This document shows, one piece after another, positions 5,699 through 60,759 of a stretch of 64,000 nucleotides of DNA. Both the position numbers and the translations under genes were made by a program. Source of the DNA: Demequina litoralis (GTDB taxonomy: Bacteria; Actinomycetota; Actinomycetes; Actinomycetales; Demequinaceae); assembly GCF_030418455.1 (NCBI RefSeq), contig NZ_JAUHPW010000001.1, forward strand, positions 310,001-374,000. Reading direction: 5' to 3'. Every line of letters starts with the position of its first letter. Positions within the stretch are counted from its first letter, which is position 1. The notes under the pieces are model-generated. The model did not search any database, was not told where the DNA came from, and saw only the letters and a list, made by a program, of their open reading frames with translations.

Positions 5699-5713
5699 GC
5701 CCGCCATTGTTCC

Positions 5714-5722
5714 GCATCGTCC
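5714..5722 (-). repeat. GGACGATGC repeat, intergenic copy
   Basis: Exact copy (GGGGACGATGCGG in context) in the gap between the divergent hisS and cyclophilin genes, just upstream of the hisS start. Confidence 0.85.
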
Positions 5723-5765
5723 CCACCTAGACTGACCTGGCACATCCGCGGCACGGGAAGGCTCG

Positions 5766-8330: not shown

Positions 8331-8873
8331 GTGATCCTGCTGCGCGCCGCGGACGTGGGCCGGCCCGCCTTCGCGCGCCTCGCCCGCCAGCGCATCGTCG
8401 CCCCGCACGGTCCCGGCGTCGCGCGGCCGCTGGACGTGCCCGACTCCCCCGGCCTGCGCGCGCTCGCCGCCTCGCCGCGCGTGCCGGCTCACGTGGTCCT
8501 CACGGGCACGGCGGCGCTCTGGGTCCACGGCTGGGTGGACGATGCTCCGGTCGCCTGGCACGCGGTGGGTCACCGGGGCCTGTACCGGCCGCCGCACGCG
8601 GAGGTGGCGCTGCACTCGGGCGTCACCGCGCGGATGGGCGTCCGGGTCGAGGGCGGGCTGATGCTCGCTCCCCCGGCGCGGGCCTGCGTCGACGCGCTGC
8701 GCTGGGAGGAGCCGGCGGTGGCCCTCGCGGCGGTGTGCGGCGCGCTCGCTGCCGGACGCATCGGACCGCCGGACCTCGAGGCGGCGCTCGCCCACGACGC
8801 GATCACCGGCGGCGGCTACGCGCGGCTGGCGTCGCTCGTGGACGAGGTGTCTAGGGCCGCTTCGCGCCCGTGA
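8331..8873 (+). CDS. Small protein resembling AbiEi-family antitoxin C-terminal region
   Basis: About 180 residues from a GTG at 8331. The core VVLTGTAALWVHGW, followed by PHAEVALHSGV and LAPPARACVDALRW, resembles the central part of actinobacterial 'type IV TA AbiEi-like antitoxin' proteins. That resemblance is from memory of the family pattern and is weak. No AbiEii-type nucleotidyltransferase partner is adjacent. The frame continues upstream into the DUF349 region, but that part is antigenic shadow of another gene; the GTG follows the structured intergenic region. The last 23 bases overlap the convergent rel stop. It contains a GGACGATGC copy at 8537-8545 (Val-Asp-Asp-Ala). Confidence 0.55.
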   Translation: MILLRAADVGRPAFARLARQRIVAPHGPGVARPLDVPDSPGLRALAASPRVPAHVVLTGTAALWVHGWVDDAPVAWHAVGHRGLYRPPHAEVALHSGVTARMGVRVEGGLMLAPPARACVDALRWEEPAVALAAVCGALAAGRIGPPDLEAALAHDAITGGGYARLASLVDEVSRAASRP

Positions 8874-11103
8874 CGCGGCGCGCGTCGTAGACGCCGTCGA
8901 TGCGGCGCACGGCGGACAGGATCGCGCCGAGGTGCGACGGGTCCGCCATCTCGAACTGGAAGCTCGACATCGCGACCCGCTCGCGCGTGGTCGACACGTT
9001 CGCGGACAGGATGTTGACGTGGTGGTCGGACAGCACCTGGGTCACGTCCGAGAGCAGGCGGTTGCGGTCGAGGGCCTCGACCTCGATCTGCACGAGGAAC
9101 GTGCCCGCGCTGTGGCCGGTCCACTCGACGTCGATGAGCCGCTCGCTCTGGTTGTGCAGCTGCGCGAGGTTGTCGCAGTCGGCGCGGTGGACGGAGACAC
9201 CGGAACCACGGGTGATGAAGCCCTGGATCGGGTCGCCAGGCACCGGCGTGCAGCAGCGCGCGAGCTTGACGACCACGTCGGTGAGCCCGTGCACCGAGAC
9301 GCCGGGGTCGCCCCGTCGCGCGGAGATCCGCTGCGGCGGCAGGCCGGGACGGGTGATCTCGGTGAGGTCCTCGTCGGCGCCCTCCTGGCCGCCGACGGCC
9401 TCGGTCATGCGGGCGACGACGTCTGCCGGCTGCTCCTTGTGCTCGCCGATCGCCGCGTAGAGCGCGTCGACGTCCTCGTAGTGCATCTCCTTCGCGAGGG
9501 CGAGGAGCGTGGGACGGCTCATGAGGCGCTGCATGGGCAGCTGCTGGCGGCGGATCGCGCGGGCCAGCATGTCGCGCCCGGTCTCGATCGACTCCTCGCG
9601 GCGCTCGCGCGTGAACCACTGCCGGATCTTGTTGCGGGCACGCGTGGACTGCACGAACTCGAGCCAGTCGCGCTTGGGATGCGCGTTCTCGTCGGAGGTG
9701 GTGAGCACCTCGACGGTGTCGCCGTTCTCGAGCGTCGAGTCGAGGGGCACGAGGCGCCCGTTGACCTTGGCGCCGATGGTCTTGTGGCCCACCTCGGTGT
9801 GGACGGCGTACGCGAAGTCCACGGGGGTCGCGCCCTGCGGCAGCGACAGCAGCTTGCCGCGCGGAGTGAAGACGTAGACCTCGGCCTTGGAGATCTCGCC
9901 GCGGAGGCTGTCGAGGAACTCGGTGGGGTCCGCGGTCTCCTGCTGCCAGTCGGCGATCTGGCGCAGCCAGCCCATCTCGCCGCCGCCCTTCGACGGCTGG
10001 CCGGTCTTCGCGGTCTCCTTGTAGCGCCAGTGCGCCGCGAGCCCGTACTCGGCGCGGCGGTGCATGTCGTACGTGCGGATCTGCAGCTCGACGGGCTTGC
10101 CCGTGGGCCCGATCACCGTCGTGTGCAGCGACTGGTAGAGGTTGAACTTGGGCATCGCGATGTAGTCCTTGAACCGGCCCGGGACGGGCTGGTAGCGGGC
10201 GTGCATCGCGCCGAGGACCGCGTAGCAGTCGCGCACCGTCTCGACGAGGATGCGGATGCCGACGAGGTCGTAGATGTCGTTGAGGTCGCGGCCCCGGACG
10301 ATCATCTTCTGGTACACGGAGTAGTAGTGCTTGGGGCGGCCGGTGATCTCCGCCTTGATCTTCATCTGGCGGAGGTCCTTCTCGATCTCCGCGCGGACCT
10401 GCGCGAGGTACTTCTCCCGCTCGGGCGCCCGCTCCGTGACGACGTCGACGATCTCCTGGTAGATCTTCGGGTACAGCGTCTGGAAGCTGAGGTCCTCCAG
10501 CTCCCACTTGATCGCGTTGAGGCCCATGCGGTGCGCGAGCGGCGCGTAGATCTCGAGCGTCTCCTGCGCCTTCTTGCGCGCGGACTCGGGAGCCACGTAC
10601 TTCCACGTGCGCGCGTTGTGGAGGCGGTCGCACAGCTTGAGCAGCAGGACGCGGATGTCCTTGGCCATCGCGACGACCATCTTGCGGACCGTCTCCGCCT
10701 GCGCGGCGTCGCCGTACTGGACCTTGTCGAGCTTGGTGACGCCGTCGACGATCATCGCGACCTCGTCGCCGAACTCCTGCTGCATCCGCTCGAGCGGGTA
10801 CTCGGTGTCCTCGACCACGTCGTGCAGCAGCGCCGCCGCGATGACCGAGTCCGGCATGCCCAGGTCCGCGATGATCTGCGCGACGGCGATGGGGTGCGTG
10901 ATGTACGGCTCGCCGCTCTTGCGCAGCTGGCCGCGGTGGGCCTCCTCCGCCACGCGGTAGGCGCGCTCGATGAGGCCGGTCCGTCCGCGCGGGTACATGC
11001 GCCGGTACGTGTCGAGCACGCCGTCGATCGCGCTCGCCTCACGGCTCCCCCGGCGGAGGAACCCGAGCCCGAGCGTCCCGGTCGAGGGACGGGTCTCAGT
11101 CAC
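8851..11103 (-). CDS. relA: Bifunctional (p)ppGpp synthetase/hydrolase (Rel)
   Basis: About 750 residues of long RSH protein that makes and degrades the stringent alarmone. The hydrolase HD domain is intact (ALLHDVVEDT, near residue 96), so it should be bifunctional. The synthetase domain follows (DIYDLVGIRILVETVRDCY, GRFKDYIAMPKFNLYQSLHT, VELQIRTYDMH), then TGS (VYVFTPRGKLLSLPQGATP), a zinc-finger-like segment with CCTPVPGD, and a C-terminal ACT domain. I chose the GTG at 11103 because GGAGG lies 5 bases upstream; the GTG at 11109 would touch that Shine-Dalgarno. It is the last gene of the long minus-strand chain. Confidence 0.97.
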   Translation of the reverse strand: MTETRPSTGTLGLGFLRRGSREASAIDGVLDTYRRMYPRGRTGLIERAYRVAEEAHRGQLRKSGEPYITHPIAVAQIIADLGMPDSVIAAALLHDVVEDTEYPLERMQQEFGDEVAMIVDGVTKLDKVQYGDAAQAETVRKMVVAMAKDIRVLLLKLCDRLHNARTWKYVAPESARKKAQETLEIYAPLAHRMGLNAIKWELEDLSFQTLYPKIYQEIVDVVTERAPEREKYLAQVRAEIEKDLRQMKIKAEITGRPKHYYSVYQKMIVRGRDLNDIYDLVGIRILVETVRDCYAVLGAMHARYQPVPGRFKDYIAMPKFNLYQSLHTTVIGPTGKPVELQIRTYDMHRRAEYGLAAHWRYKETAKTGQPSKGGGEMGWLRQIADWQQETADPTEFLDSLRGEISKAEVYVFTPRGKLLSLPQGATPVDFAYAVHTEVGHKTIGAKVNGRLVPLDSTLENGDTVEVLTTSDENAHPKRDWLEFVQSTRARNKIRQWFTRERREESIETGRDMLARAIRRQQLPMQRLMSRPTLLALAKEMHYEDVDALYAAIGEHKEQPADVVARMTEAVGGQEGADEDLTEITRPGLPPQRISARRGDPGVSVHGLTDVVVKLARCCTPVPGDPIQGFITRGSGVSVHRADCDNLAQLHNQSERLIDVEWTGHSAGTFLVQIEVEALDRNRLLSDVTQVLSDHHVNILSANVSTTRERVAMSSFQFEMADPSHLGAILSAVRRIDGVYDARRVTGAKRP

Positions 11104-11179
11104 GCGCACCTCCGAGGCTGGTAGGGGGACAGTCTATCCGGGCGGCCCCTCCCACCGACACGCCCCCAAACGCGACGAA

Positions 11180-11211
11180 GGGGACGATGCGGCGGCCACC
11201 GCATCGTCCCC
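11180..11211. terminator. Inverted pair of GGACGATGC repeats forming a hairpin
   Basis: Two copies of the repeat face each other: GGGGACGATGCGG (11180-11192) and CCGCATCGTCCCC (11199-11211), a perfect 13-bp stem with a 6-base loop. It sits in the 125-base gap between secF (upstream) and rel (downstream) on the minus strand. A hairpin built from two head-to-head copies of a dispersed repeat is how uptake-sequence terminators look in Neisseria and Haemophilus. No clear T-run follows on either side. Confidence 0.7.
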
Positions 11212-11229
11212 CTCGCCGGAGGCCCGGGA

Positions 11230-12318
11230 TCAGGCCTTGCGGTTCTTGCGCGTGGGCTGGGCTGCGGCGCCCTGATGGCGGCCCTTGTCGACCGCGCCGA
11301 CGCGCACGTCGCCGGTCTCCGAGATCGCGACGTCGGTCTGGCCGGCGGCGCGCAGCTCGAGCACCTTGGCGGTGTGGTCCTTGATGCGCTGCTCGTTGTC
11401 GCGCAGCTGCACCTCGACCGGCGTGGCCACGAAGATCGACGAGTACGTGCCGACCGCCATGCCGACGAAAAGCGCGAGAGAGATGTCCTTGAGCGTGCCC
11501 GCGCCCAGGAGGAACGAGCCGATGAAGAGGATCGCGCTCACGGGCAGCAGGGCCACCACCGACGTGTTGATCGAGCGCACGAGGGTCTGGTTGAGGCCCA
11601 GGTTCGCGAGCTCGTCGTACGTGTAGCGATGCTGCGCGGTGAGGTTTGCGGTGTTCTCGCGGATCTTGTCGAACACCACGACCGTGTCGTACAGCGAGTA
11701 GCCGAGGATCGTGAGGAAGCCGATCACCGACGCCGGCGTGACCTCGAAGCCCACGAGCGCGTACACGCCGGCGGTGATGATGAGGTCGTGCGCCAGCGCG
11801 ACGAGCGCCGCGACGGCCATGCGCCAGGCACGGAAGTACAGCGACATCACGATCGTCACGAGGACGAGGAACACGATGAGGCTGGTGACCGCCGCCTTGC
11901 CGACCGACGCGCCCCACGTGGGGCCGATCTGCGTGAAGCTCACCTGCTCCTCGGGGACGTCGTACGCGTCCGCGAGGGCCGTGGTGATGTCGCGCGCCGT
12001 CTCGGTGTCGACGACGCCGATCTGGATGCGCACGTCGCTGTCGCCGAGGATGGTGACACGAGCGGTCGCCTCGGGCGCGAGCTCGGCCACCACGTCCTGT
12101 GCCTCGGCGGGCTCGGTGATCGCGGTGTCGGTGACGCGGAACTCGGTGCCGCCGACGAAGTCGATGCCCGGGTTGAGCCCCTTGGTGAAGAGCAGCAGCA
12201 GCGACAGCGCGACGAGCACGCCGGACACGATGAACCAGCGCTTGCGCTGCTGGACGATCGGGTAGGTCTTCTCCCCCGAGTGCAGCTTGTTGCCCCACTG
12301 GGCCAGGTTGAGCTTCAT
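11230..12318 (-). CDS. secF: Protein translocase subunit SecF
   Basis: 362 residues, six membrane helices with one large external loop after helix 1. Recognisable features are the first helix leading to GLNPGIDFVGGTEFRV, the family motif SVGKAAVTSLIVFLVLVTI, and the GYSLYDTVVVFDKIREN block in the second half. It partners SecD to pull secreted proteins through SecYEG using the proton gradient. The start ATG overlaps the secD stop by one base (TGATG) and has GGAGGAG upstream, so translation is coupled. Confidence 0.97.
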   Translation of the reverse strand: MKLNLAQWGNKLHSGEKTYPIVQQRKRWFIVSGVLVALSLLLLFTKGLNPGIDFVGGTEFRVTDTAITEPAEAQDVVAELAPEATARVTILGDSDVRIQIGVVDTETARDITTALADAYDVPEEQVSFTQIGPTWGASVGKAAVTSLIVFLVLVTIVMSLYFRAWRMAVAALVALAHDLIITAGVYALVGFEVTPASVIGFLTILGYSLYDTVVVFDKIRENTANLTAQHRYTYDELANLGLNQTLVRSINTSVVALLPVSAILFIGSFLLGAGTLKDISLALFVGMAVGTYSSIFVATPVEVQLRDNEQRIKDHTAKVLELRAAGQTDVAISETGDVRVGAVDKGRHQGAAAQPTRKNRKA

Positions 12319-14120
12319 CAGTTCTCCTCCCCCTCGGGGCGGGCGTCGCCGGCGGCGGCAGCGGCGGCCGCCGCCTTGCGCTCGGCGAGGGTGGGCTGGC
12401 CGGTGACGATGCGGCCGCGGCCCTTGTACATCGTGTCGCGTCCGAGCTGGCGCGGGTCGAGGCCCGACCACCGGTGGCCGCGTGCGAAGAACGGGCGCTT
12501 GCTCAGCAGCATGAGGATCGGGTGGGTGAACAGGAACACCACGAGGATGTCGACCAGCGTGGTGAGACCCAGCGTGAACGCGAAGCCGCGCACGCCGCCG
12601 ACGGCGAGCATGTACAGCACCACCGCGGCGAGGATGTTGATCGCGTCCGAGGCCAGGATCGTGCGGCGGGCGCGACGCCAGCCGTGGTCGATCGCGGCCT
12701 GCAGCGAGCGGCCCTCGCGCAGCTCGTCCCTGACACGTTCGAAGTAGACGATGAACGAGTCCGCCGTCACACCGATCGCGACGATCAGACCCGCGACACC
12801 GGCGAGCGACAGGCGGTACCCGATGGTCCACGACAGCAGCGCGATGAGCACGTAGGTGATCGCACCGGCGATCGCGAGCGAACCGACCGTGACGAGGCCG
12901 AGCGCGCGGTACTGGATGAGCGAGTAGACGACCACCAGGATGAGGCCGATCGCGCCGGCGATGAGGCCCTTCTGGAGCTGGTCGGCGCCGAGCGTCGCGG
13001 AGATCTGCTGCTCCGACTGCACCTCGAGCGTGAGGGGCAGGGCACCGAACTTCAGCTGGTTGGCCAGCTGCTGCGCGCTCTCCTGCGTGAACGAGCCTGT
13101 GATGGACGCCTGGCCGCCGGTGATGGAGGTCGAGACGCTCGGCGCGGAGATCACCACGCCGTCGAGCACCATCGCGAACTGGTTGCGCGGCGACTCGAGG
13201 TCCTTGATGCGGCCGGTGATGTCGGCGAACTTCTTGCCGCCGTCGTTGGTGAGCTCGAGGCGCACCTCGTAGCGGCCGGTGAGCGTGCCGGTCGAGTTGT
13301 ACTCGGGGCCGGAGGTGGCGGTGTCGACGTCGGTGCCGTCCATCTCCACCGGGCCGAGGATGTACTTCGCGAAGCCGTCCTGGTCGCACGCGACGTCGGC
13401 CTTGGTCGGGTCGCCGGGCGTGACGCCGGAGAGGTTCTCCGGGTCGGTGCAGTCGAGGGCGTCGTACTTCGCCTGGACCTCGTCGGTCACCCAGTCGAGG
13501 GACGATGCGTCGGTGCCCTCGGCGGGCTCAGTCGAGGCGTCCGCGGAGGCGGTCGCGTCGGCGTCCGCGGAGGCGGAGGCGCTGGGCTCGGCCGTGGCCT
13601 CGTCGGTGGGCTCCGCGGACTCGCTGGCGTCGGTGCCGGCCTCGGCGGAGGCCGAGGCGCTCGGCTCGGCCGACGCGGAGGCGTCCGCGCTGGACTCGTC
13701 CGTGGTGGTCGCGGCGGGCGAGCCCGACACGAGCACGGGGCGGAACTGCAGCTGCGCGCTCTGGCGCACGAGGTCGACGGTCTCCTCGGACGGGTTGCCC
13801 GGGAGCGCCACGACGATGTTCTGGCCCTGCGTGCTGATCTCCGCCTCGGCGACGCCGGACGCGTCGATGCGGCGACGGATGATGTCGACGGCCTGGTCCA
13901 GGTCGGCCTGGTCGATCTGCTGGTCGCTGCCCTCGGCCAGCGTGGGCGCGAGCACGATCTCGCGTCCGCCGGCCAGGTCGAGCGCGAGGGCCGGCGTCCA
14001 CGACGCACCCCCGGTCACGACGCCGATCGCCAATGCCGCATAGAGGCCGACGACGATCGCGCCCAGCCAGGTGAGCGCTCGACGCGCCTCGTTCTTCACT
14101 CGTGCCACAGGAATCCTCAC
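12318..14120 (-). CDS. secD: Protein translocase subunit SecD with a low-complexity insert
   Basis: 600 residues. Helix 1 is followed by the SecD signature LALDLAGGREIVLAPTLAEG and the periplasmic P1 domain. The C-terminal five-helix block has VVYSLIQYRALGLVTVGSL and AIGVTADSFIVYFERVRDELREG. Between residues of about 135 and 210, P1 carries a Ser/Ala/Glu/Asp/Thr-only insert; a GGACGATGC copy (13500-13508) sits at its end, read Asp-Ala-Ser-Ser. Start GTG at 14120; a GTG four codons in is possible. No yajC gene lies between ruvB and secD, where many actinobacteria have it. Confidence 0.96.
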   Translation of the reverse strand: MRIPVARVKNEARRALTWLGAIVVGLYAALAIGVVTGGASWTPALALDLAGGREIVLAPTLAEGSDQQIDQADLDQAVDIIRRRIDASGVAEAEISTQGQNIVVALPGNPSEETVDLVRQSAQLQFRPVLVSGSPAATTTDESSADASASAEPSASASAEAGTDASESAEPTDEATAEPSASASADADATASADASTEPAEGTDASSLDWVTDEVQAKYDALDCTDPENLSGVTPGDPTKADVACDQDGFAKYILGPVEMDGTDVDTATSGPEYNSTGTLTGRYEVRLELTNDGGKKFADITGRIKDLESPRNQFAMVLDGVVISAPSVSTSITGGQASITGSFTQESAQQLANQLKFGALPLTLEVQSEQQISATLGADQLQKGLIAGAIGLILVVVYSLIQYRALGLVTVGSLAIAGAITYVLIALLSWTIGYRLSLAGVAGLIVAIGVTADSFIVYFERVRDELREGRSLQAAIDHGWRRARRTILASDAINILAAVVLYMLAVGGVRGFAFTLGLTTLVDILVVFLFTHPILMLLSKRPFFARGHRWSGLDPRQLGRDTMYKGRGRIVTGQPTLAERKAAAAAAAAGDARPEGEEN

Positions 14121-14191
14121 GGTCTCGGCTCGCTTGAGCCCCGAGCGATTCTAGCCAGCCTGAGCGTGCACCGGGTGCCGCCCGGCCGGGC

Positions 14192-15235
14192 TCAGTCGAA
14201 GAGCCGGCCCCCGGACTCGCCGCCGATCGCGTCCGCGGGCGGCTTCAGACCGAGGTGATGCCACGCGTCGGCGGTCGCGATGCGGCCGCGCGGGGTGCGG
14301 CTCATGAGGCCCTCGCGCACGAGGAACGGCTCCGCGACGGTCTCGACGGTCTCCGTCTCCTCGCCCACCGTGACGGCGAGCGTCGACAGGCCCACGGGCC
14401 CGCCCGCGAAGCGCGTGCACAGCGCCTTGAGCACCGCGCGGTCCAGCCGGTCGAGGCCGCGCTCGTCGACCTCGTACACCGTGAGGGCCTCGCGGGCGGC
14501 GTCGAGCGTGCCGCGGCCGGTGCCGTGCACCTCGGCCCAGTCGCGCACGCGGCGCAGCAGCCGGTTCGCGATGCGCGGGGTGCCGCGCGAGCGGGACGCG
14601 ATCTCGTGGGCCGCGTCGTGGGTGATCGACAGGCCGAGCCGGCCCGCCGAGCGCACCACGATCGCCTTGAGCTCGTCGTCCTCGTAGAAGTCGAGGTGGC
14701 CGGTGAAGCCGAAGCGGTCGCGCAGCGGCGCGGGCAGCAGGCCGGCGCGGGTGGTGGCGCCCACCACGGTGAACGGGGGCAGGCTCAGCGGGATCGACGT
14801 CGCGCCCGCGCCCTTGCCGACCACCACGTCCACACGGAAGTCCTCCATCGCGAGGTAGAGCATCTCCTCGGCGGGGCGCGCCAGGCGGTGGATCTCGTCG
14901 AGGAACAGCACGTCGCCCTCGTCGAGCGAGGACAGGATCGCGGCGAGGTCGCCGGCGTGCTGGATCGCGGGGCCCGAGGTGACGCGCAGGGTCGAACCGA
15001 GCTCCGCCGCGATGATCATCGCGAGCGTGGTCTTGCCCAGGCCCGGCGGGCCGGACAGCAGCACATGGTCCGGCGGGGCGCCGCGGCCGGTGGCGGCGCT
15101 CAGCACGAGGCCGAGCTGCTCGCGCACGACGCGCTGGCCGACGAACTCGTCGAGGTTGACGGGCCGCAGCGCGGCCTCGTTGGAGCGCTCGATCGCGTCC
15201 GCGTCGGGGCTCACCACCCGGGTCTCGTCATCCAC
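14192..15235 (-). CDS. ruvB: Holliday junction branch-migration ATPase RuvB
   Basis: 347 residues, normal length. N-terminal [12 protein letters not shown]; Walker [11 protein letters not shown] (residues 61-70); Walker [11 protein letters not shown]; sensor [19 protein letters not shown]; arginine/winged-helix end with [16 protein letters not shown] and the C-terminal RTPRGR motif. It forms the hexameric motor that drives branch migration with RuvA. Its start overlaps the ruvA stop by 8 bases, so it belongs to the ruvC-ruvA-ruvB operon. The gap to secD is 71 bases. Confidence 0.98.
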
Positions 15236-46897: not shown

Positions 46898-47452
46898 ATG
46901 GCCAGCGACCTCAGCGAGGCGCCCGCGGACTTCCGCGAGGCGCTCCTGTCGCTGCGCGACGCCCCCACCCATCCCTCCGTCCGGCTGACGGAGGTGCCCG
47001 CCCCGCACCGCATCGCGCCGTACGCGGCGGCCATCAGCGGCGAGGTCGAGGGCGAGGAAGCCTCCGGGCGCTTCGTGATCCTCCACGACCCCGACGGCCA
47101 GGCCGCCTGGGAGGGGACGATGCGCATCGTCGCCCTGGTGAAGGCGTCGGCCGACCCCGAGGTCGGCCGGGACGAGCTGTGGGGCGACGTCGCGTGGTCG
47201 TGGCTGTCGGACTCCCTCGCCGGCGCGCCCCACCGCGCCCGCGGCGGTACCGTGACCAAGGTGACCTCGACGTCGTTCGGAGAGATGTCCGACCGACCGG
47301 ACGAGGTCAGCATCGAGCTGCGGGCGTCGTGGACGCCCACCACGACCGATCTGGCCCCGCACATCGCGGCGTGGACGGATCTCATGGCCGCATGCGCCGG
47401 CGTCCCCCCGACGCCCGATGGCGTGCGCACGCTGCCGGGAAGGACCCTGTGA
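46898..47452 (+). CDS. DUF3000 family protein
   Basis: 184 residues. ALLSLRDAPTHPSVRLTEVP and IAPYAAAISGEVEGEEASGR, then WGDVAWSWLSDSLAG and GTVTKVTSTSFGEMSDRPDE, match the actinobacterial DUF3000 family usually encoded just before RNase D, as here. Function unknown. The stop overlaps the next GTG (GTGA). It contains GGACGATGC (47115-47123) within a 16-bp perfect palindrome, read Thr-Met-Arg-Ile-Val. Confidence 0.88.
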   Translation: MASDLSEAPADFREALLSLRDAPTHPSVRLTEVPAPHRIAPYAAAISGEVEGEEASGRFVILHDPDGQAAWEGTMRIVALVKASADPEVGRDELWGDVAWSWLSDSLAGAPHRARGGTVTKVTSTSFGEMSDRPDEVSIELRASWTPTTTDLAPHIAAWTDLMAACAGVPPTPDGVRTLPGRTL

Positions 47453-60076: not shown

Positions 60077-60759
60077 AGGTCATGATCGCGGGCGCCGGCT
60101 CGGTGGGACGCTCGATCGCGCGCGACCTCCTCGAGCACGGCCACGAGGTGCTGCTCGTCGACTCGAACCCGGCCGCGATGCGCGTCGCGCAGGTCGCCGA
60201 GGCGGAGTGGATGCTCGCCGACGTCTGCGAGATGTCCGCGCTTCGCGACGCGCAGGTGGAGACGATGGACGTGGTGGTCGCCGCGACCGGCGACGACAAG
60301 GCCAACCTCGTCGTCTCGTTCCTCGCGAAGACCGAGTTCGGCGTGCCGCGCACCGTGGCGCGCGTCAACAACCCGCGCAACGAGTGGATGTACGACACGC
60401 AGTGGGGCGTCGACGTCGCCGTGTCGACGCCGCGCATCATGACCGCCATGGTCGAGGAGGCGGTCGCGATCGGCGACCTCGTCCGCGTCTTCACGTTCCG
60501 CCAGTCCGGTGCCGCGATGGTCGAGGTGACGCTGCCCGCATCGTCCCCGGTGGTGGGCGTGCCGCTCAGCGAGATCCAGTGGCCCGTCGACATCGTGCTC
60601 GCGTGCATCATCCGCGGCGACCGCACCATCGCGCCGACCCCGGACGACACGCTCGAGGCTCACGACGAGCTGCTGTTCATCGTGTCGTCGGAGGCGGATC
60701 CTGAGTCTCTCGAGCAGCTCCTGCGTCGCGGGCCAGCAGCCATACGCCCCACAGCGTGA
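60073..60759 (+). CDS. trkB: TrkA-family potassium uptake regulator (CeoC-like)
   Basis: 228 residues. VKVMIAGAGSVGRSIARDLL with the GxGxxG, EVLLVDSNPAAMRVAQVAEA, WMLADVCEMSALRDAQVETM, and a C-terminal RCK_C domain (MVEVTLPASSPVVGVPLSEI). Partner of the preceding TrkA; the two likely form a hetero-octameric ring. GTG at 60073 has GGAGGTG ahead. A GGACGATGC copy (60538-60546) reads Ala-Ser-Ser. The last 83 bases overlap the convergent DUF3159 gene. Confidence 0.94.
   Translation: MKVMIAGAGSVGRSIARDLLEHGHEVLLVDSNPAAMRVAQVAEAEWMLADVCEMSALRDAQVETMDVVVAATGDDKANLVVSFLAKTEFGVPRTVARVNNPRNEWMYDTQWGVDVAVSTPRIMTAMVEEAVAIGDLVRVFTFRQSGAAMVEVTLPASSPVVGVPLSEIQWPVDIVLACIIRGDRTIAPTPDDTLEAHDELLFIVSSEADPESLEQLLRRGPAAIRPTA

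Follow-up and report, generated by a model that had tools for sequence, protein, structure and literature searches.

An uptake-sequence-like repeat with dialects in the Gram-positive genus Demequina, of putative function, and its hairpin between secF and rel

Between secF and rel of Demequina litoralis, two copies of a short motif face each other, and this arrangement raises the questions of whether the hairpin they form ends the secF transcript and why the motif is there at all. The original prediction, made from the letters alone, had taken the pair for a 13-bp terminator-like hairpin with the architecture of the paired uptake sequences of Neisseria and Haemophilus. The window, by which we mean the whole 64,000-nucleotide stretch of DNA that was analysed, comes from a genome of 3.02 Mb in 22 contigs. 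In the NCBI taxonomy Demequina belongs to Demequinaceae, Micrococcales, Actinomycetota; the five best loci for Rel are all from Demequina (82-86% identity), four of them from named entries and one from a MAG with no genus name, and the next genus stands at 70%. The two genes are co-directional, both on the minus strand. The name secF was given from its sequence and from the original prediction, and relatives are present in 44/44 Demequina genomes; its neighbor we take to be secD from the familiar secDF gene order, and the box TAGACT is presumably a -10 element, as it fits the TANNNT pattern. Coordinates are collected in Table 1.

Table 1. Features at the secF-rel junction and elsewhere in the genome (window positions unless a locus is named)
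Feature	Position	Strand	Remark
Motif copy GGGGACGATGCGG	11180-11192	+	core GGACGATGCG at 11182-11191
Facing motif copy, reads CCGCATCGTCCCC on + strand	11199-11211	-	
Six-base spacer between both 13-mers	11193-11198		
Full hairpin from paired copies	11173-11218	-	starts 11 nt past secF stop codon
secF	11230-12318	-	gene 5' of hairpin; its transcript would end there
secD (presumed)	12318-14099	-	directly upstream of secF
-10-like box TAGACT, ahead of rel	11131-11136	-	between hairpin and rel
rel (RelA/SpoT-type), downstream gene	8851-11109	-	
Unpaired exact 13-mer copy	5712-5724	-	
Unpaired exact 13-mer copy	60536-60548	-	
Motif-free island	L216 ~6.2-20 kb and L217:1-8500		G000 C1 ~449-471 kb

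Both 13-mers and their six-base spacer are exactly as had been described. The inverted repeat grows further, to 23-nt arms (11173-11195 and 11196-11218) that are 87% complementary, and the gene-sense (minus-strand) RNA of 11160-11230 has a folding energy of -53.5 kcal/mol; shuffled versions average -34.7 (z -5.4), and 0/200 of them fold as well. A stable GC-rich hairpin just past a gene, as in Rho-independent terminators, is present at secF. The sequence directly after the stem is TTCGTCGCGTTT, and a consensus scan of 8500-14500 for U-tract terminators found 0, with 1.4 expected. The hairpin of the original prediction was confirmed, with arms longer than the 13 bp first described. We infer that transcription may terminate at this hairpin.

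The motif reaches far beyond this junction. The 10-mer GGACGATGCG occurs 1564 times in the genome (793+771 by strand), about one copy per 1.9 kb, and its reversed control five times (2+3); for GGACGATGCGG the counts are 369+372, with 0+1 for the reversed control. Within the window the 10-mer is present 32 times and the 13-mer, with at most two mismatches allowed, 51 times (9.9 expected), and the most over-represented 8-mer there is GACGATGC, found 59 times against 6.8 expected under a first-order model. In a 464-kb sample, consisting of the window and 20 stretches picked for holding pairs so that densities lean towards pairs, the 10-mer occurs 282 times where 7.3 are expected. Most single-letter variants lie near background in this sample; the best kept carry C at position 1 (41 vs 17.7), C at position 3 (32 vs 13.6) and G at position 7 (27 vs 14.2). 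The flanks of the core weakly favor G upstream and GG downstream. Two further repeats were observed: tandem arrays with a 25-bp period and the motif in each unit (G405 C88:4080-4188; G000 C16:279265-279323), and a palindrome, TTGGTACCAA, at three places in the window (six counting both strands) against 0.0 expected, which is possibly a regulator site.

An ordinary GC-rich terminator, resembling by chance a word favored by codon usage, would be another account of the hairpin, and it fits the existence of motif-free gene-end hairpins in this genome (27 ends) and, at the junction itself, in five siblings. It is contradicted by the distribution of the motif. Called genes, positioned by a simple gene caller rather than a curated annotation, contain 154 copies, whereas synonymous shuffling leaves a mean of 14 and no more than 18 in any of 20 shuffles; this 11-fold excess rules out codon usage as its source. 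Outside genes the density is higher still, since 79/262 unpaired copies of the 9-mer GACGATGCG lie in the ~10% of the sample that is intergenic. Together with the lack of a matching excess of same-direction pairs, reported below, these counts largely refute the ordinary terminator, which we consider very improbable.

The motif is directional, not palindromic, and both strands are used without bias, 793/771 genome-wide in a draft genome whose replichores are unmapped; the sample count is 132/150 over 21 stretches, none of them uneven, where the pairs held there even out the counts. Chi and FtsK-orienting sites are known by their strand bias along replichores, and a site of this type was ruled out by these counts.

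The genome count of inverted pairs that the original prediction had proposed revealed the excess it hinged on. Head-to-head pairs of the 9-mer number 31 genome-wide, with spacers all of 8-16 nt (1-20 searched), and tail-to-tail pairs 28 (spacers 1-30 searched), against 25 same-direction control pairs over two orientations (spacers 1-30). This control predicts ~8.3 head-to-head pairs (Poisson 1.4e-9) and ~12.5 tail-to-tail pairs (Poisson 1.1e-4), and general clustering as the source of the pairs is ruled out because same-direction pairs are far fewer. Placement relative to genes covered all 31 head-to-head and 17 of the 28 tail-to-tail pairs. Twenty of the 31 head-to-head pairs lie outside genes and 14 lie no more than 60 nt past a stop; the corresponding fractions are 13/17 and 9/17 for tail-to-tail pairs, 5/5 and 2/5 for same-direction pairs, and 2493/20000 and 685/20000 for random sites. 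Separately, two head-to-head copies overlap at window positions 47113-47134, one differing from the 13-mer at 1 position and the other at 2.

REP elements consist of a conserved palindrome of tens of bases and are accompanied by a RAYT gene. Hairpin elements of the REP/BIME kind, spread by a transposase-like enzyme, would resemble the Demequina motif in that its paired copies make intergenic hairpins, but an estimated ~94% of copies are unpaired 10-mers, the flank consensus of these single copies is weak, and the spacers and flanks of the pairs vary from site to site. We therefore hold such elements to be a most doubtful source of the motif. The paired share, ~6% of all copies, is an estimate in which the 9-mer total was scaled by the sample ratio 343/282 from the 1564 10-mers.

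Copies were also counted in 396 genomes of the order, including 34 of the 44 Demequina genomes. The 10-mer GGACGATGCG is abundant in Demequina only, and bimodally there; the highest total seen elsewhere is 102 (362 genomes). In sampled siblings poor in GGACGATGCG, the over-represented words are mostly GGCCGATGC extended by G, C or T, and over the same 396 genomes GGCCGATGC has a pattern complementary to that of GGACGATGCG, with up to 1004+1014 copies against 60+50 for the control. The 34 Demequina genomes accordingly divide into 14 with the A form (GGACGATGCG), 14 with the C form (GGCCGATGC), a one-letter dialect, and 6 with neither, at thresholds of 800 copies for GGACGATGCG and 600 for GGCCGATGC (both strands together) that were set after the counts were known; G103, above both thresholds, was assigned to the GGACGATGCG group. 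The core common to both dialects is CGATGC.

All 14 A-form and all 14 C-form genomes hold facing pairs in their own form. Head-to-head A-form pairs (spacers 1-16) are found in 16/44 Demequina genomes, namely the 14 A-form genomes and two outside the copy counts, and C-form pairs (spacers 1-22) in 32/44, with up to 28 per genome. Over the 14 C-form genomes there are 185 head-to-head vs 62 same-direction pairs, where ~31 head-to-head pairs would be expected. On the SecF tree the A form occupies one main clade and a separate pair, G322 and G393, among motif-poor genomes, a distribution that, on a tree of a single gene, is no more than suggestive. By eye, the inner part of dialect pairs is often GGTNACC (GGGTCACCC, GGTGACC), an exact dyad seen in G131, G061, G009 and G221; the dyad may represent a loop of favored sequence or a site for a second protein. 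G332 (loci L196-L198, L238, L239 and L253), a genome from another family of the order, is also rich in GGCCGATGC (857+824, control 87+90), and further genomes under its genus label are not. The excess holds within its genes (37 vs about 8), and six 20-kb stretches contain 0 head-to-head pairs and 1 tail-to-tail pair. Transfer and independent origin are both possible explanations of its richness.

The secF-rel junction was compared in 43/44 Demequina genomes, that of the window included; G396, with its SecF match in pieces, was left out. Both arms are exact in nine (G000, G366, G349, G210, G254, G145, G028, G173 and G303), and one arm is changed in G243 and G401. A GACGATGCC pair stands at the junction of G398 and a GGCCGATGCC pair at that of G198, with the same pair bearing one changed base in G187; the GGCCGATGCC pairs are those predicted by the dialect of these two genomes. 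A hairpin of other sequence occupies the junction in five (G331, G264, G375, G103 and G089). In the 14 aligned junction hairpins with the motif or its dialect, 98.1% of stem cells pair, and in two related rows the dialect letter is altered on both sides of the stem, from A-U to C-G. The occurrence of motif, dialect and other-sequence hairpins at one junction indicates that a hairpin is kept at this position even as its sequence turns over; the motif is one of several ways in which the site is filled.

Such recurrence, between secF and the promoter-like box of rel, is what would be expected of a cis-acting RNA or operator specific to secDF-rel, and the sequence TAGACTG itself recurs between the two genes in many siblings. 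No stem of at least 10 pairs, however, is found at the junction in 24/43 genomes, including the A-form G322 and G393, and in many of these 24 the rel box comes straight after secF. Between 11000 and 11400 no match to an Rfam family attains the gathering score of that family, weak matches to microRNA and sRNA models falling far below theirs, and the same motif pairs occur at many other genes. A regulatory element private to these genes is hence hardly to be expected.

Motif hairpins at gene ends mostly lack the U-tract that directly follows the stem of Rho-independent terminators: TTT follows 1/16 motif hairpins (the one between secF and rel), 0/27 motif-free hairpins and 0/1 half-motif hairpins, with a background of 8/516. 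At the junction itself, TTT was seen by eye within about 12 nt after 8/14 motif hairpins. Among perfect gene-end stems of at least 11 in this genome, the motif lies in both arms of 1/4 from stretches not picked for pairs and of 11/32 from stretches that were picked; for randomly sampled siblings the figures are 0/4 (A-form) and 0/21 (C-form), for motif-poor siblings 0/8, and for G332 0/6. So few unselected gene-end hairpins with the motif in both arms imply that a terminator role is limited to a minority of copies. As far as architecture goes, the original prediction had good grounds for its analogy with paired uptake sequences, given an abundant motif, an excess of inverted pairs, their placement at gene ends and a recurring, dialect-matched hairpin; the analogy falls short in that the hairpins mostly lack U-tracts. 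The finding also goes beyond a single hairpin, to a repeat of a Gram-positive genus that resembles uptake sequences, comes in dialects and has a putative function.

Genes for a DNA-uptake machine are found in this genome. Locus L219 encodes ComEA (SLBB and HHH_3) and ComEC, and locus L220, ~12-25 kb before the start of the window, carries pilB, pilT, pilC, a pilin gene, minor-pilin-like genes, pilD and pilM; PilN, PilO and two minor pilins, which are without a Pfam match, we take to be such from their position. Across Demequina the minor-pilin-like genes are strongly diverged, and PilB, PilT and PilC are conserved (L220:3364-7352; L221-L237). A search for the receptor by co-variation found no match between minor-pilin types and dialect in 18 genomes. 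ComEC is present in 43/44 and T2SSF in 44/44 Demequina genomes, and since both are equally common in motif-poor ones, the machine does not explain the distribution of the motif; competence genes were ruled out as a switch between motif-rich and motif-poor genomes. In G357, a motif-poor genome, the matches to comEC and pilC are split, possibly through assembly error.

That competence genes do not separate the two kinds of genome would suit a motif that serves some intracellular process, be it at hot spots of recombination or in the organisation of the chromosome, or that is an unexplained iterated word such as cyanobacterial HIP1; the hairpins would then be a secondary use of close inverted copies. 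HIP1 is an extremely abundant short palindromic word of unproven function, and a role of this sort would account for abundance and dialects without uptake. The Demequina motif shares this extreme abundance, but it is directional and forms facing pairs; it lacks the strand bias of Chi or FtsK-orienting sites (132/150; 793/771), and inverted pairs at gene ends combined with dialects are the documented pattern of the DNA uptake sequences (DUS) of Neisseriaceae and the uptake signal sequences (USS) of Pasteurellaceae, both of them Gram-negative families. An in-cell site is accordingly possible, though we think it rather unlikely.

One stretch of the genome is free of the motif. A ~22-kb island of lower GC content (61-65% in its centre) holds no 10-mer, where the genome mean predicts ~11, and its genes encode a phage-type integrase, a DUF499-HEPN protein, helicases (one of the NO VEIN type) and GmrSD; it is probably an integrated defence island. 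It was picked from three gaps in the list of 11-mer copies and is the one clear island among them. In the other two gaps 10-mers are present, if somewhat sparse (14 over 40 kb in one, 5 over 20 kb in the other), so copy-free stretches fail as a general sign of foreign islands. The island illustrates, and does not prove, the uptake reading.

On balance we favor, with restrained confidence, the reading of the motif as a DNA-uptake-sequence system in Actinomycetota, with facing copies serving as transcript-end hairpins. Stated in full, and held with the same slight preference, this proposes that Demequina has a self-recognising uptake system with dialects, independently evolved, the first in Gram-positive bacteria and the third among those known, whose facing copies were recruited to transcript ends. 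The motif would be recognised at DNA uptake: DNA from kin would carry GGACGATGCG, and the type IV pilus/ComEA/ComEC machine would have a putative surface receptor with a preference for this word. Repeated uptake and recombination could have spread the motif to its present density. Where two copies came to face each other just past a stop codon, they would form a long hairpin, and the transcript coming from upstream would end there or be protected by it. At the secF-rel junction this would apply to the secDF transcript, and rel would then start from its own promoter.

If this reading is true, a monoderm phylum would add one more motif, unrelated to the two known ones and with dialects and facing-pair hairpins of its own. 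This would mean that the trait evolves repeatedly and needs no outer membrane. The dialects would provide many natural combinations of motif and host for finding the receptor, and the related word in G332 would indicate a system not confined to the genus. Even if the motif does not serve uptake, it calls for an explanation that one actinobacterial genus keeps a directional 10-mer, with dialects, at such density.

Compared with known systems, the motif has the over-representation, strand symmetry and excess of facing pairs near gene ends expected of DUS and USS, as well as dialects around a constant core and a host with a pilus and ComEA/ComEC, which are also present in the motif-poor siblings. 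A literature search, made without most subscription journals, found no such motif reported in Demequina or Actinomycetota. DUS and USS are described as being just as abundant and as having inverted pairs and dialects too (PMC3630211, PMC2397512, PMC12616744). The DUS of Neisseriaceae is a short directional word with thousands of copies, with dialects in one family around a common core and inverted gene-end pairs described as terminators (PMC3630211, PMC2397512, PMC12616744); a terminator association of DUS pairs is described in two of these papers (PMC3630211, PMC2397512). The hosts of DUS likewise have type IV pili and ComEC. Unlike DUS, the Demequina motif is of unrelated sequence in a Gram-positive host, its pairs are only ~6% of copies, and its hairpins mostly lack a U-tract; the receptor is ComP in Neisseria and a putative one in Demequina. 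The USS of Pasteurellaceae also has a short core with weak flank preference, many copies, two sequence types and inverted pairs at gene ends, but its cores are AAGTGCGGT and ACAAGCGGT (PMC12616744) and its hosts belong to a different phylum. The string TGCGG is common to USS and the motif, one of its positions being half G and half C in Demequina. Micrococcus luteus, of the same order, is naturally competent and takes up DNA by Flp pili, with no uptake word described in the accessible part of the source (PMC6370729). Demequina differs from it in having an additional operon of the PilB/T/C type.
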